Part shown: positions 3,754 through 21,905 of the stretch, piece by piece
Position numbering within the stretch: position 1 is the first letter of the stretch
Layout of the letters: every line of letters starts with the position of its first letter
Source of the DNA: a virus
IMG/VR virus record: IMGVR_UViG_3300031223_000047
Location: 1-21,905 of that record
Strand: one strand, 5' to 3'
Length of the DNA stretch: 21,905 nt
The notes under the pieces: model-generated
The model's input: only the letters and a program-made list of their open reading frames with translations
What the model was told of the DNA's origin: nothing
Database searches by the model: none
Position numbers and translations under genes: made by a program

Positions 3754-5379
3754 ATGTCGATGATCGGAAGGCTGAAACACCTGCTGGCCGAGGCGCTGCC
3801 TCCGACAGTGGGGCCTGAGGGGATGACCCTCCCCAAACCCTCGGGCAAATACATGCGCGGTGGGCGCGGTGTCACCTTCGCGGGCTGGAAACCGGCGCTG
3901 CGGGAAAGCCAGGATGATATTGGCGAGGCCTGGGACGATGCGGCCGCGCGGGTGGGTGACCTCTTGCACAACAGCGGCTGGCTGGCCGGGGCCATGGAGC
4001 AATGCGTCGCCAACACCGTGGGCACGGGGCTGCAGCTGAAGGCGCTGCCAGAGAACGAGACTTTTGGCATGACGCCAGCCGAGGCCTCGGACTGGGCGAA
4101 GACGGTGGAGCGCCGGTTCGAGCTCTGGGCGCGCAGCGCGCAGGAATGCGACATTCAGGGCTTGCGCACTTTTGGCCAGATGCAGGCGGCGGCGTTTCGA
4201 TCCTGGCTGGTCACCGGTGAAATCCTCGCGGAACTGCCCTGGCGCAAACGGGCCTGGAACCGCTACGGCACCAAGGTGCGACTGCTGCCGCCGCAGCGGC
4301 TGTCGCGCAAGACGGAAAGCATGAAGCGGCTGATCAACGGTGTCTATACGGACGCCGATGGCATGCCCGTGGGCTACCGCGCGATCCGCAAGGACCTGTT
4401 CCGGCATGACGTGGAATACGATGTGCGCGCCCGCGACCGGGCAGGTCGACCACGGGTGATCCACATCTTCGAGGGCGCGCCTGGCACACACCGGGGCATC
4501 TCGCCTCTGGTTCCGGCACTGCAGGTGGCGCGGCAGTTTGACCAGTTGGCGGATGCCACGCTGATGGCGGCCATCGTGCAGACGCTGTTTGCGGTGACGA
4601 TCACCTCCGACGAGCCGACGGAACAGGTGTTGCAGGGGCTGCTGACGCCACAAGAACAGGCGCAGATGCTGGCGCAAGGCATATCGCCGATGGAGGCCTA
4701 TATCGAGATGGTCGCAGGATATTACGACGGCAGCACGCTGGATGTGGGGATCAATGGCCGCCTGGCGCATCTGTTTCCGGGTCAGGAGCTTAAGTTTCAC
4801 ACCAGCAACCACCCGTCTTCGGATTATGCCGCCTTCGCCATGCATCTGCTGCGCGAACTCGCGCGCTGTCTCGGGCTGACCTATGAAAGTGCGACGGGCG
4901 ACAATGTGGGGGCGACCTATTCCTCGCTGCAGGCGGCCACGACAGAGATCTTTGCCATCACGAAAGCCCGGCGTCGCAACATCATGGCGCCGTTCTGCCA
5001 GCCGATCTTTGAGGCCTGGCTCGAGGAAGAGATCGAGGCGGGAGCCCTGCCGTTCCCGGGCGGGATTGCCGGGTTCATGGCCAATCGCACCGCTGCATGC
5101 CGCGCGGAATGGCGGGGTGATCCGCGCCCGCAGGCCGATGATCTGAAAAAAGCCAAGGCGCATGAGGTCTGGAAGCGCCTTGGTGTGATGTCGGACGCGA
5201 TGATCTGCACCGATCTCGGGGCCGATGTGGACGATGTTTACCAGCAACTGGCGCAGGAACAGGCGCTGCGGGCCGAATACGGCCTGCCGGAGCCGCAGAT
5301 GATGGGCGCGCAGGGCGGTGGACCGAGTGCCGCTGTCGCAGATGAACAGGACGAAACTAGTGGTGAGGCGGAGACATGA
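3754..5379 (+). CDS. Phage portal protein (lambda gpB family)
   Basis: 541 aa (lambda gpB is 533). It forms the dodecameric ring at the capsid vertex through which DNA enters, and on which terminase and the neck assemble. Family signatures are the N-terminal tip/stem region with NSGWLAGAMEQ (73-83), the HRGISPLVPAL segment (246-256), and the clip/crown region with LGLTYESATGDN followed by TYSS (373-391). The start ATG 3754 lies 5 nt after the terL stop, with AGGT (3743-3746) upstream. Its stop overlaps the next start as ATGA. The last ~30 residues are Gln/Gly-rich and probably disordered. A 525-codon open frame on the opposite strand is a high-GC shadow. Confidence 0.96.
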   Translation: MSMIGRLKHLLAEALPPTVGPEGMTLPKPSGKYMRGGRGVTFAGWKPALRESQDDIGEAWDDAAARVGDLLHNSGWLAGAMEQCVANTVGTGLQLKALPENETFGMTPAEASDWAKTVERRFELWARSAQECDIQGLRTFGQMQAAAFRSWLVTGEILAELPWRKRAWNRYGTKVRLLPPQRLSRKTESMKRLINGVYTDADGMPVGYRAIRKDLFRHDVEYDVRARDRAGRPRVIHIFEGAPGTHRGISPLVPALQVARQFDQLADATLMAAIVQTLFAVTITSDEPTEQVLQGLLTPQEQAQMLAQGISPMEAYIEMVAGYYDGSTLDVGINGRLAHLFPGQELKFHTSNHPSSDYAAFAMHLLRELARCLGLTYESATGDNVGATYSSLQAATTEIFAITKARRRNIMAPFCQPIFEAWLEEEIEAGALPFPGGIAGFMANRTAACRAEWRGDPRPQADDLKKAKAHEVWKRLGVMSDAMICTDLGADVDDVYQQLAQEQALRAEYGLPEPQMMGAQGGGPSAAVADEQDETSGEAET

Positions 5380-17194: not shown

Positions 17195-18442
17195 ATGTCT
17201 GACCCGACCTTCGGGATTTCGATCACGCGGATCGATACTGAGCCGCGCCCGCCCGTCTGGAGCGATATGTCCGTTGTGGGCCTGATCGGCACGGCGCCCG
17301 ATGCGGATGCATCGGTGTTCCCGGCCGATACGCCAGTGTTCCTCTATTCTGACGATGCCACCAAGCTGACAGCGCTCGGGGCAACTGGCACGCTGCGCGA
17401 CGCGGTCACACTGATCAACGCGCAGCTTGGTGAGTTCCAGGTGGCAGCCAAGGTCGTGGTTGTGCGCGTTGAAGACGGTGCCGATGCTGACGCGACCATC
17501 GCCAATATCGTCGGCGACGGCGTCGCGACCGGCCTGCAGGCGTTCATCGCCGCGGGTCCAGAGCTTGGTATCATCCCACGCCTGATTTGCGCTCCGGGCT
17601 ATACCAGTCAACGCGGTGTCGGTGAGGCCAACCCGGTCTGTGCAGCGCTGCCCGCGATCTGCGAAAAACTTCTGGCGCATGCGGTTGTCGATGGCCCCGC
17701 CACCACTGAGCAGGACGCCATCGATTGGCGAGAGACGATTGCCTCGCAGCGCCTGATCCCGGTCGACCCTGCAGTGAAAGTGTTTGCCGGTGGCGTTTCT
17801 GTCGTGCAGCCGCTTTCGCCGGCCATCATTGGCATCGGCGTGCGCCGCGACCACGAAAAGCAGGGCCGACCGTTCCACAGCTGGGCCAACCAGCCGGTGC
17901 AGGGCATTGTTGGTCCCTCACGTCCCATCAACTTCTCGCTCACCGATGGCGCGACCGAAGGCCAGCGCTTGCTGTCGGCCAATGTCGGCGTGCTCCTGCG
18001 CGGTGAAATGGGCGTGGAGAGCGCCATCGGTCAGGGTGGTTTCATCTTCGTGGGCACTGACAACGCGGGCGAGGACGACCTCTGGCGGTTTTATAACGTC
18101 ACCCGGGGGCGCGACTTCATCCACCTGATGCTGCTTCGGACCCTGCGGTTCTATCTCGGGCGGTTCAACATCACGGGCCAGACCATCCAGGCGATCCTGA
18201 ACACGATGGAAACCGGCCTGCGCAATCTCAAGGCCGATGGCGATATCCTTGGCTTCGAGATGAAGTTCACGCGCGATCAGAACACGCCTGAGGAACTGCG
18301 TCAGGGCCGCTTCACGGTCAGCTTTGCTGCCGAGGAAGCACCGGTGCTGCGCTATCTCGGCATTCAGTCCGCGCGGTACCGCCCGGCGCTTGATGCGCTG
18401 CTTGATGATCTGCTGGCGCAGGTCGGCACGATCACCGGCTAA
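17195..18442 (+). CDS. FI: Contractile tail sheath protein (P2 FI family)
   Basis: 415 aa (P2 FI is 396). It forms the contractile outer tube whose shortening drives the spike. Visible are the N-terminal DPTFGISITRIDTEPRPP arm, a domain with VVGLIGTAPDA and VFLYSDDATKL, IPRLICAPGYTS in the middle, then RDFIHLMLLRTLRFYLGR and the C-terminal TVSFAAEEAPVLRYLGIQSARY, which resembles the conserved FI C-terminal domain that carries the extended arms linking neighbouring subunits. The start ATG 17195 has AAGGAG (17180-17185) at 9 nt. It is followed by tube, chaperone and tape measure genes, as in P2. Confidence 0.95.
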   Translation: MSDPTFGISITRIDTEPRPPVWSDMSVVGLIGTAPDADASVFPADTPVFLYSDDATKLTALGATGTLRDAVTLINAQLGEFQVAAKVVVVRVEDGADADATIANIVGDGVATGLQAFIAAGPELGIIPRLICAPGYTSQRGVGEANPVCAALPAICEKLLAHAVVDGPATTEQDAIDWRETIASQRLIPVDPAVKVFAGGVSVVQPLSPAIIGIGVRRDHEKQGRPFHSWANQPVQGIVGPSRPINFSLTDGATEGQRLLSANVGVLLRGEMGVESAIGQGGFIFVGTDNAGEDDLWRFYNVTRGRDFIHLMLLRTLRFYLGRFNITGQTIQAILNTMETGLRNLKADGDILGFEMKFTRDQNTPEELRQGRFTVSFAAEEAPVLRYLGIQSARYRPALDALLDDLLAQVGTITG

Positions 18443-18467: not shown

Positions 18468-19004
18468 ATGAGCAACATTTACGTCATGGAGGCCGCAAAC
18501 CTTTTTTGCGGCGACGAGGACCCGTCGGCCTCCAAGCACCTGACGCTGACCGAACTGCAATTGCCGAACCTGCAGGAGATGTTTCAGGACCATCATCCCG
18601 GTGGGTCGCGCGTTCAGGTCGAAGTTGCGCTTGGCATCGAAAAGCTTGAGGCCAACTTCAAGCTAGCGGGCTGGGACCCACAGGTTCTGGCGCAGTTTGG
18701 TCTAGGTGCCCGGGCGCGCAAGAAGTTCACCGCCTACGGCTCGGTGCGAGACAAGCGCAACGGCGTGGCCATTGAGGCCAAGGCGGTTTTTGAGGGTCGT
18801 CTTGGCACGGCCAATGCAGAGTCGTTCAAGCGCGGCGATCTGCAGAGTTTCGATTACGCGATTGGCGAAATCATGCACTATGAGCTCTATTTCGAGGGCA
18901 AGGAAGTCTACTACTGGGACTTTTTCACAACCGACTGGCGTGTCAACGGCGTGTCGGAAAACGCAGATGAGCGCGGCATCCTGCGCATCCCCAATGGTTT
19001 CTGA
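18468..19004 (+). CDS. FII: Tail tube protein (P2 FII family)
   Basis: 178 aa (P2 FII is 172). It polymerises into the inner tube through which DNA passes. The pattern matches: YVMEAANLFCGDEDP N-terminus, KHLTLTELQLPNLQEM, HHPGGSRVQVEVALGIEKLEA, KFTAYGSVRDKRNG, and a C-terminal YELYFEGKEVYYWDFFT. ATG 18468 follows AAGGAG (18454-18459) at 8 nt. Its stop lies within the GAGGTGAT ribosome site of the next gene. Confidence 0.94.
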   Translation: MSNIYVMEAANLFCGDEDPSASKHLTLTELQLPNLQEMFQDHHPGGSRVQVEVALGIEKLEANFKLAGWDPQVLAQFGLGARARKKFTAYGSVRDKRNGVAIEAKAVFEGRLGTANAESFKRGDLQSFDYAIGEIMHYELYFEGKEVYYWDFFTTDWRVNGVSENADERGILRIPNGF

Positions 19005-19012
19005 GGTGATCC

Positions 19013-19333
19013 ATGTCTGACGCAGTAAAACAAAAAACCGTTTCCCTGTCCGTGCCGGTGACCTTTGAGGGCCGGGAAATCACCGAGATCCGCATTGCCA
19101 AGCCCAAGGTCAAGGACCTCAAGCGGATGAATGCGGCACTGGACGGCATCACCGATCGTCTGGATCAGGGCATTGTCATGGCTTCGGCACTGACGGGATA
19201 CCCGATCGAGATGATCGAGGATCTGGACACTGATGACTTCACCGCGCTGTCGGAGGTGATTGCGGATTTTTTCCCCAAGGGCACGGCTTCGCCTCCTGGC
19301 GATCGGTCGTTGCCGAAACTGCCCACTGGCTGA
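19013..19333 (+). CDS. E: Tail assembly chaperone gpE (unshifted product)
   Basis: 106 aa in frame 0. The first ~85 residues match the gpE pattern (TVSLSVPVTFEGREI, IAKPKVKDLKRMNA, and MIEDLDTDDFTAL). Beyond the slippery site (Phe86-Phe87) the frame-0 tail (about 88-106) is Pro/Gly/Ser-rich and looks like read-out sequence after a frameshift signal. In P2 the short and shifted forms chaperone the tape measure and help determine tail length. ATG 19013 follows GAGGTGAT. Confidence 0.9.
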   Translation: MSDAVKQKTVSLSVPVTFEGREITEIRIAKPKVKDLKRMNAALDGITDRLDQGIVMASALTGYPIEMIEDLDTDDFTALSEVIADFFPKGTASPPGDRSLPKLPTG

Positions 19334-19431
19334 ACACGCCGCTCACGGCTTTTGAAGAGATGGAGTGGGCCGAGGTGGTGCTGTGGCACGCGGAGGCCCG
19401 ACGTATGGCCGTTGCCAAGAGGATGAGGTGA
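19013..19431 (+). CDS. gpE+E' tail assembly chaperone by -1 frameshift (139 aa)
   Basis: Frame 0 is read to TTC 19271-19273, then the ribosome slips back one base and continues from 19273 to a TGA at 19429-19431, adding 52 residues. The added part reads as a real protein: HGFASWRSVVAETAHWL, then FEEMEWAEVVLWHAEARRMA, the acidic-Trp-helix pattern of P2 E' extensions. It has no obvious start of its own, consistent with expression only by frameshift. The fusion ends 4 nt before the tape-measure start, as expected for P2-like gene order. The frameshift itself is known for P2; in this phage it is inferred. Confidence 0.88.
19267..19273 (+). promoter_or_regulatory. Programmed -1 frameshift site T TTT TTC
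   Basis: The heptamer falls exactly in X XXY YYZ register: codons GAT TTT TTC, so both the P- and A-site Phe tRNAs can re-pair after a one-base slip. P2's gpE uses a very similar T-rich heptamer. Two C-rich codons follow, and TCGCC/GGCGA (19289-19302, TCCT loop) forms a short hairpin about 15 nt downstream, which may be the stimulator but is further away than the usual 5-9 nt. Confidence 0.85.
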
Positions 19432-19435
19432 CCAG

Positions 19436-21905
19436 ATGACACAGCTCACATCCCAACTGGTCATCGAACTGCTGGACCGAGTAACCAGCCCGGCGCGCCG
19501 GGCGGCGAATGCGCTGGCGGGCATCTCGAACACGGTCCGTGAGACCAATGGCCAGCCCATAACCTTCGGGGATCGCTTGAACGCGGCCATCACCCGCAAC
19601 AACCGCGCCTTGGCTGACGCACGCGGCGGGCTGGTGGATGCGGTGGCCAGCTTTTACGCGCTGCGCAGCGCGATCGGCGCGCCGATCCAGGCCGCGTCGG
19701 ATTTTGAAAGCGCCATGGCCGATGTGGCCAAGGTGGTGGACTTTCCGACACCAGACGCTTTCGCGCAGTTCCAGCAGGACCTCTTTGCGCTGTCGCGCGA
19801 CATTCCCATCGCGGTGACAGGCCTTGCAGACATTGCCGCAGCAGCGGGACAGGCCGGAATTGCTGGTGAGGACCTGATCCGCTTCACGGATGCGGCCGCC
19901 CGGATTGGGGTGGCGTTTGATATCAGCGCCGAGCAGGCGGGTGGCTCGATGGCCAACCTGATGACCGCCCTCAACCTGACCATCGACGAGACGGTGTCGC
20001 TGGCCGATGCGATGAACCATCTGTCCAACAACCAGGCCTCGAGTGCGGCGGACATTCTGAACGTGGTCCAGCGTGTGGGCGCGCAGGCGACCATGTTTGG
20101 CTTTACCGCGGAGCAAACATCCGCCTTCGCCTCCGCGATGCTGGCAGCAGGCTCGACCAGCGAGGTTGCTGCGACGTCATTCCGAAACATGGGGGCCGCC
20201 CTTACAAAGGGCGAGGCAGCCACCGCCGGACAACGCCGGGCTCTACAGGCGCTTGGACTGGACGCGGAAGATACCGCGCGGTCCATGCAGGAGAACGCGG
20301 TTGAAACCACGATCGACGTGCTGCGCCGGATTGGCCAGTTGCCAGCCGAGCAGCGCGCGGCGATCTCGTCGCAGCTCTTTGGCAATGAGGCCCGTGCGCT
20401 TGGGCCGCTGCTGACCAATCTCGGGCTGGTCGAGGACACCCTTGGCATGGTGGGGGATCGCGCGACCTATGCGGGGTCCGCCTTTGCGGAGTTTGCAGCC
20501 CGCAACAACACGTTCCAAGCCAATATGCAGCGGTTCCAGAACGTTCTGACCGAGCTGCAGATCAATATCGGCAATGCGCTGATGCCCGCGATCACGCAGC
20601 TCGCCGAAGCCGTCACGCCGTTGATCACCCGTCTCGCCGACCTGGCGAATGCCTATCCGGAGGTGACGCTGCGCGTGGTGGGGGCGACTGCAGCGGTGAT
20701 CGCCTTCAAAGGCGCCATGGCGGCGCTGCGCTTTGCCGGGCTTCTGGGACGCGGGGGTGTCTTGTCACTGATTGCGGCGGGCTACAACAGCATCGGCCGG
20801 GCGGCCATCGGGGCGCGCACGGCGGCAAGTTCGATGATCGGATTGCAATCTGCGCTGGCGGCCATGTCTGGCCAGCCCCTCGGGACGCTTGGTCGTTTGC
20901 GTGCCGGGCTCACCGGGATCGCGCTGGCGGTCCCGGGCGTCGCGGCCTTGTCATCGGGTATTGCGGCCATCGGCGGAGCCGTGGCCACGATCTCGGCACC
21001 TGTCTGGGGGACCTTTGCGCTGGTCGCCGCTGCTGTGGCGGCCGCCGGTTTGACAATTTACCGCTACTGGGACCGGATCAGCGCGATCTTCACCGGCGTG
21101 GGACAGGCGATCGGCGCAGCGCTGCAGCCGGGTCTCGATTGGGTTGGCGAAAAGCTCTCCTTCCTGACGCCGCTGGTCGATGGGTTCGGTGCAGCCTGGG
21201 ATTGGGTACGGGACAAGCTGTCGGGTCTTGGCGAGTTGCTCTCGGGTCTGTTCACCCGCGAAACCTTGTCTGAGGAAGACGTCGCCCGGATCACCGAACG
21301 GGCGCGGGAAGTCACCGAAAACATCATCGGCTGGTTTGCTGGCTTGCCTGCCCGGATAGGCGAGGCGGCCAGCGCATTGGTCGCGGCGGGTCGCGGTCTG
21401 ATCCAGTCCATCTGGGACGGGGCCCGTGAGCGGTTTGGGGAATTCATCGACTGGGTTGCGGGCATTCCGGGGCGTATCATCGACGCAATTGGCAGCATTG
21501 ATCTGTCCAGCCTGATCAACTTTGGCGAGCCGCCGCGCTGGCTGCGCTGGATGATGGGCGATGAGGAGGTCACACCGCCAGAGATCCCGGCACTGCCGCG
21601 GCAGGCTGAATTTGATTTGTTGCCGACCGATCAAAGAGGGGCTGCAGAGACGCTGGCGGCGGCGCGCGCGGCCGGGGATCTGCCAACGCCGCAATATCTG
21701 CAGGACCTGTCAGACTACGCCGCACACCTGCGCGGTGAAATGGCCGGGGTTCAGGTACAGATCGACCAGATTGATCAGAACGGGCCGATGGGAGACAGCC
21801 TGGCAGCTCCCTTGCTGGCCAACCTTGGACGGTTGCAGGAAGAGCTGGTTGGGGTCGAAGCAGATCTCGATGCGGGTCGCCTGCGCGCGGATGAGGTGAC
21901 AGAGG
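19436..21905 (+). CDS. T: Tail tape measure protein (P2 gpT / TP901 family), 3' end beyond window
   Basis: Open from ATG 19436 (GAGGTG 19424-19429 upstream) to the window edge: 823 codons without a stop. Residues ~85-290 carry the TP901 tape-measure core (SDFESAMADVAKVVDFPTP, then IAAAAGQAGIAGEDL, QRVGAQATMFGFTAEQTSAF, and SFRNMGAALTKGEA), which recognises the gpE/E' chaperones and the baseplate. Residues ~492-547 are a long hydrophobic, Ala/Gly-rich stretch ending in YRYWDRI, the kind of membrane-active segment thought to help DNA cross the inner membrane. Repeated Trp-containing helices (WDWVRDKL, WFAGLPARI, IDWVAGIPG) follow. The protein fills the tail lumen and sets its length. P2 gpT is ~815 aa, so the full protein is at least as long. 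Confidence 0.95.
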   Translation, partial: MTQLTSQLVIELLDRVTSPARRAANALAGISNTVRETNGQPITFGDRLNAAITRNNRALADARGGLVDAVASFYALRSAIGAPIQAASDFESAMADVAKVVDFPTPDAFAQFQQDLFALSRDIPIAVTGLADIAAAAGQAGIAGEDLIRFTDAAARIGVAFDISAEQAGGSMANLMTALNLTIDETVSLADAMNHLSNNQASSAADILNVVQRVGAQATMFGFTAEQTSAFASAMLAAGSTSEVAATSFRNMGAALTKGEAATAGQRRALQALGLDAEDTARSMQENAVETTIDVLRRIGQLPAEQRAAISSQLFGNEARALGPLLTNLGLVEDTLGMVGDRATYAGSAFAEFAARNNTFQANMQRFQNVLTELQINIGNALMPAITQLAEAVTPLITRLADLANAYPEVTLRVVGATAAVIAFKGAMAALRFAGLLGRGGVLSLIAAGYNSIGRAAIGARTAASSMIGLQSALAAMSGQPLGTLGRLRAGLTGIALAVPGVAALSSGIAAIGGAVATISAPVWGTFALVAAAVAAAGLTIYRYWDRISAIFTGVGQAIGAALQPGLDWVGEKLSFLTPLVDGFGAAWDWVRDKLSGLGELLSGLFTRETLSEEDVARITERAREVTENIIGWFAGLPARIGEAASALVAAGRGLIQSIWDGARERFGEFIDWVAGIPGRIIDAIGSIDLSSLINFGEPPRWLRWMMGDEEVTPPEIPALPRQAEFDLLPTDQRGAAETLAAARAAGDLPTPQYLQDLSDYAAHLRGEMAGVQVQIDQIDQNGPMGDSLAAPLLANLGRLQEELVGVEADLDAGRLRADEVTE

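Follow-up and report, generated by a model that had tools for sequence, protein, structure and literature searches.

A putative −1 frameshift site preceded by a conserved internal Shine-Dalgarno element in a P2-type tail chaperone gene of a marine bacterial virus

Does the short gene between the tail tube and tape-measure genes of this marine bacterial virus encode one protein or two? The window, i.e. the whole stretch of DNA that was analysed, is an entire IMG/VR record of 21,905 bases. The features that bear on the question, all on the plus strand, are as follows.

17195-18442, plus strand: tail sheath gene, P2 FI type (phrog_23, E=2.8e-59)
18468-19004, plus strand: tail tube gene, P2 FII type (PF04985, E=2.6e-22)
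19003-19010, plus strand: ribosome-binding site (RBS) of E, GAGGTGAT (from sequence; duplex −11.0 kcal/mol)
19013-19333, plus strand: E, tail assembly chaperone, short frame-0 product of 106 aa (ORF; PF10109, phrog_166)
19252-19260, plus strand: internal Shine-Dalgarno (SD)-like element GGAGGTGAT, probable frameshift stimulator (duplex −15.8 kcal/mol, conservation, motif search)
19267-19273, plus strand: slippery heptamer T TTT TTC in register with E (from sequence; kept in relatives)
19273-19431, plus strand: E', −1 frame extension of 52 codons plus stop (translation; pN/pS 0.22; profile match to P2-type E')
join(19013..19273,19273..19431), plus strand: predicted E+E' fusion, 139 aa (translation)
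19280-19314, plus strand: possible hairpin starting 6 nt past the heptamer (predicted stem, window clade only)
19436-21904, plus strand: tape-measure gene in the P2 T position, running off the contig (PF10145, E=5.3e-37)

The position of the gene, with a tail tube gene (PF04985) on its 5' side and a tape-measure gene (PF10145) on its 3' side, is the one given by an earlier sequence-only reading of this DNA. The tape-measure RBS, GAGGTGA (19425-19431), overlaps the stop of E'. PF10109 (Phage_TAC_7, 'E, or 41 or 14') covers residues 9-87 of E (E=7.7e-15, 55.1 bits against a cut-off of 25), so that the end of the domain coincides with the slip site, and E also matches phrog_166 (E=4.4e-15). Within GAT TTT TTC CCC, the heptamer is in frame with the ATG at 19013, and the −1 frame is open from 19273 to the TGA at 19429-19431, which would add 52 aa and give a 139-aa fusion with the predicted junction peptide ...ADFFPQGHGFASWR. 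The perfect register and the length of the fusion, both proposed in the earlier reading, were thereby confirmed.

TTTTTTC occurs twice in the window and is not rare by base composition alone. Because such a string is common by chance, the case depends on register and conservation. As to register, a scan of 17 plus-strand ORFs for in-register X XXY YYZ heptamers (Y = A/T) yielded E's T TTT TTC and no other, and the codon usage of the contig predicts ∼0.01 in-register T6 sites per 106-codon ORF.

As to conservation, relatives were gathered by protein searches blind to the heptamer, which found ∼50 close loci and ∼40 further ones; Antarctobacter heliothermus, Thalassovita litoralis, and a Pseudooceanicola MAG carry close relatives. 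All close loci with an intact frame reaching the site have T TTT TT[C/T] and an open −1 extension (the DNA of L049 stops short of the slip site). The relatives at 44-70% identity came from searches using E' or a deeper alignment of E, and one large clade among them uses T TTT TTG, the P2 form. Down to ∼44% identity, all relatives covering the site have T TTT TT[C/G/T] followed by a −1 extension of ∼49-56 codons, a steady length alongside a frame-0 tail that varies from 4 to ∼29 codons. In addition, when 298 genomes of a single family were searched by profile, eight places emerged in six genomes, and the heptamer and −1 extension are present in 8/8, one of which is the Antarctobacter heliothermus DSM 11445 locus (L051); more divergent family members have longer extensions of ∼56-84 codons. 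The heptamer is thus conserved, and neither homologues without it nor homologues with stops in the −1 frame, the two kinds that the sequence-only reading had proposed to look for, appeared among relatives down to ∼44% identity or in the eight family places.

Codon usage at the site was assessed in a set of relatives that had been selected by the heptamer itself, and this set therefore served for codon and SD statistics only, with no evidence for heptamer conservation drawn from it. The protein searches had thrown out no intact relative without a heptamer. The two most biased codon columns in the E gene are those of the heptamer, which are fixed as GGT (17/17, background 12%) and TTT (23/23, background 26%).

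Several relatives show departures around the site. L043 has an E frame that is broken upstream of an intact heptamer and E', as read from that contig in L104 (IMGVR_UViG_3300028223_000043), reflecting either a real mutation or a sequencing error. In L007, L010, L042, L047, L048, L050, L066, L068, L116, and L280-L287, the first heptamer is overlapped by another in-register one, C CCA AAG (TTTTTTCCCAAAG), and a slip at either would give an identical product. In Wolbachia phage WO (L054 2498-2883), separate gpG and gpGT ORFs are annotated, but the T run is T8 and the −1 extension is open, which suggests the same frameshift, or slippage.

These variants bear on the idea that the frames are joined by transcriptional slippage, in which the polymerase would insert an extra base into some mRNAs at the T6 run. 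A homopolymer run is present, and it is T7 instead of T6 in L045/L293 and T8 in phage WO. However, bacterial transcriptional slippage has been described for runs of 9 A or T (review, PMC5009743), and the run here is 6; the exact codon register is retained, and an SD at frameshift-site distance would lack a role. We consider slippage by the polymerase highly improbable.

The −1 extension is coding, as codon-position statistics show. In 35 non-overlapping pairs, substitutions in the extension fall at −1-frame codon positions 1/2/3 as 114/63/334. Its pN/pS in the −1 frame is 0.22, as compared with 0.21 for the E core in frame 0 and 2.6 for the E core in the −1 frame, i.e. past the heptamer it is the −1 frame on which purifying selection acts. 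Where both frames are open, each is moderately constrained (pN/pS 0.53 and 0.63), and the frame-0 tail therefore does not evolve entirely freely. Synonymous change is low for ∼20 codons past the heptamer (19274-19335 and relatives; 0.07-0.22 versus ∼0.33 upstream), for which dual coding with the frame-0 tail or local structure could be the cause.

It could be argued that the heptamer is a chance occurrence and that the two frames belong to overlapping genes or stem from an assembly or sequencing error. The contig is metagenomic and the string, as noted above, is common. This explanation is refuted by the relatives, since the heptamer arrangement recurs in independent contigs by the dozen as well as in genome records of isolates; the purifying selection on the −1 extension and the fixed heptamer codons likewise speak against it, leaving it a negligible likelihood.

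The earlier reading had also described the extension as P2-E'-like. The window E' alone has no significant match to Pfam, PHROG, or NCBIfam models, the P2 GpE model included, and tblastn of E' in phage records gave a single weak match. E' of relatives scored 0.0026-0.08 against PF06528 (Phage_P2_GpE), below the cut-off. Profile-profile comparison gave 94% for the E' families against P2-type E', 0.6% for a negative control, and 98.4% for the E family against P2-type E, these percentages being pairwise values rather than database E-values. By profile comparison, then, the E' extension appears to be remotely related to P2 E'; the resemblance stood at the level of families, whereas a direct match of the window sequence to the P2 model did not.

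We next consider how the shift might be promoted. Upstream of the heptamer lies an element that the sequence-only reading had overlooked, and its conservation is the result added here. GGAGGTGAT is complementary to nine bases of the 16S rRNA 3' end. Its predicted duplex (−15.8 kcal/mol) is stronger than that of any of the 16,853 other windows tested within genes and of any of the six start-site RBSs examined. GGAGG (19252-19256) stops 10 nt short of the heptamer (from 19267), a spacing within the published range of 6-17 nt between an SD and a slippery site (PMC4066793). The element is clear in the window clade and near relatives, and weak or absent in more divergent family members, as judged by eye.

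Such a strong SD raises the question whether E' is instead a separate protein, made by internal initiation or by termination-reinitiation with the internal SD as its RBS. That the element beats the start-site RBSs is in keeping with this idea, as is one relative, the sole exception to the conservation described above. Paracoccus phage Pyei1 (L053 2474-2904, 31% identity) has no T6 heptamer, its second ORF begins at the E stop (TGATGG), and no tape-measure gene follows directly; this layout suggests reinitiation, or that the frameshift was lost. In the window, however, the −1 frame has no ATG, GTG, or TTG before 19360, which falls within the conserved part of E', and no start codon in that frame lies at RBS distance from the SD, which is therefore not a hidden RBS for E'. 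Relatives have no conserved start codon either, and separate initiation leaves the fixed heptamer unexplained. We regard it as very improbable, if marginally less so than transcriptional slippage, and a programmed −1 frameshift, taken on its own, is by these sequence comparisons very probable.

A more serious objection concerns the SD alone, which might have arisen as a by-product of peptide conservation (E-V-I/M-A) together with high-GC codon usage, with no role in shifting. The peptide is indeed conserved, and GAG, GTG, and ATC are frequent codons here. Against this, the SD valine is encoded by GTG at 16/18 versus a background of 38%, making it the third-ranked biased column, and synonymous change per site, ∼0.33 upstream, drops to 0.118 across the seven SD codons (0.065 at the heptamer). 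In tests that treat lineages as independent, the mean SD duplex of 13 lineages at <75% identity is −11.0 versus −7.7 ± 1.0 under synonymous resampling, and 1/2000 resamplings was as strong. Furthermore, a codon-swapped control pattern, detailed below, finds few chaperones. The SD is conserved, and these statistics indicate that it is kept beyond amino-acid need; a by-product therefore appears unlikely, though clearly less so than the alternatives above, and the internal SD probably stimulates the shift. In the openly accessible papers searched, an SD stimulator was not described for this gene. An IMG/VR scan with P2-type E for SDs in P2-like phages was dominated by near-identical copies and was left out.

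Downstream RNA structure was considered as a general stimulator and rejected: z-scores were mixed, no covarying stem is common to different clades, and an Rfam search gave no match. In the window clade, the predicted hairpin at 19280-19314 has z = −0.9 and almost no covariation; on the basis of the folding model, it is a possible 3' stimulator.

A DNA-only search with the SD and T6 combined, GAGGTGATNGCNGNTTTTTTB, matched 72 IMG/VR contigs, almost always in tail-chaperone genes and mostly in those of the E/E' family. In L405, L417, L427, L428, and L433, the gene with the motif lies directly before a tape-measure-like gene and has a −1 extension of 44-125 codons; Pfam identifies a tube or tape-measure neighbour in all five (below the Pfam cut-off in L433). 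The L428 gene is a remote PF10109 member (E=2e-4), and the other four have no significant Pfam or PHROG match. Judged by motif and position, these four are probably unannotated frameshifted tail chaperones:

L405, 7191-7792: motif-only candidate gene
L417 (reverse complement), 4014-4615: motif-only candidate gene
L433, 1324-2021: motif-only candidate gene
L427, 9904-10701: motif-only candidate gene

A further gene found by the motif adjoins a terminase-like gene, an unusual place for a tail chaperone. It has T TTT TTT after EVIAGFF and a conserved 102-codon −1 extension (WNYWMIAK..AEFT.QTFWQV), which is common to L482, and is probably another programmed frameshift:

L393, 3217-4013: terminase-adjacent gene
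L412 (reverse complement), 1556-2352: terminase-adjacent gene (also in L482)

The control pattern swaps the valine and glutamate codons while keeping the peptide, and was expected to be commoner by codon usage. It matched 27 contigs, four of which are E-like chaperones and one L482, while the rest look unrelated; GAG is retained in all five of the chaperone-like and L482 matches. Because an EVIADFF-like peptide is common to the genes found, remote homology, rather than convergence, may account for the spread of the motif. On balance, we lean slightly towards the view that SD, fixed spacer, and T6 form one composite signal of several tail-chaperone families, some without a recognised sequence family, such that a motif search by DNA finds unannotated chaperones and rRNA pairing would tune the E:E+E' ratio, unlike in tailed phages thought to be stimulator-free.

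Taken together, these findings suggest that the gene very probably yields both E and E+E' by a −1 slip at T TTT TTC, with the SD probably promoting it. Most ribosomes would end at 19333 and release E (106 aa). In a minority, the P- and A-site tRNA-Phe would re-pair one base back on T TTT TTC, and translation would continue to 19431 to give E+E' (139 aa). The internal SD, 10 nt upstream, would probably pair with 16S rRNA during elongation and so promote the backward slip in a dnaX-like manner. In lambda, the short form serves as a coat for the tape-measure protein, and tube subunits are recruited by means of the extension; by analogy, E and E+E' may play these parts.

The window gene thus appears, with good support from sequence, to join the P2-type E/E+E' frameshift family, the mechanism of which is already known. 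This corrects the annotation of a tail gene of which gene callers would overlook the second product. It also brings into the set of conserved phage tail frameshifts a family that is well sampled and occurs in Rhodobacterales hosts. Where conserved RNA structure is not found, the conserved SD offers a testable answer to how frameshift rate is set, and the SD plus T6 motif locates tail chaperones from DNA alone.

Among known systems, the closest is P2, whose record annotates E and E+E' via a −1 shift at T TTT TTG (Christie et al. 2002, as cited in PMC3931495 and PMC3091744). Common to both are an E of the PF10109 family, one start with two products by a −1 shift on T6N, an E' with a GpE-type Trp motif, and the gene order sheath-tube-E/E+E'-tape measure. 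They differ in position seven of the heptamer (C here, G in P2), in the length of E (106 aa here, 91 in P2), and in the strong conserved SD 10 nt upstream here, where P2 has a weaker AAGGTGG. The P2-like phages Smp131, KS5, KS14, and KL3 (T7G/T7C, T6G) have a conserved E/E+E' shift site, as here; their hosts differ, and no SD is discussed in the passages describing them. In KS5, KS14, and KL3, the site is conserved and a downstream hairpin was not found (PMC3091744), and shifting in certain tailed phages apparently occurs without stimulators (review, PMC5009743). Wolbachia phage WO (gpG/gpGT) and Pyei1 (chaperone E) have remote E homologues at ∼30% identity: WO is like the window in its T run and open −1 extension and unlike it in having T8, whereas in Pyei1 the heptamer is absent and the second ORF starts from the E stop. 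Lambda G/GT involves a protein unrelated by annotation and a different slippery site. Nevertheless, lambda shares with the window two chaperones from one start, a −1 frameshift, and a gene between tail tube and tape measure (mechanism, PMC5009743). Finally, Escherichia coli dnaX differs in being a cellular gene with A AAA AAG, a defined 3' stem-loop, and ∼50% efficiency (PMC5009743, PMC3711429), but it is like the window gene in having an internal SD ahead of its slippery heptamer at a similar spacing.
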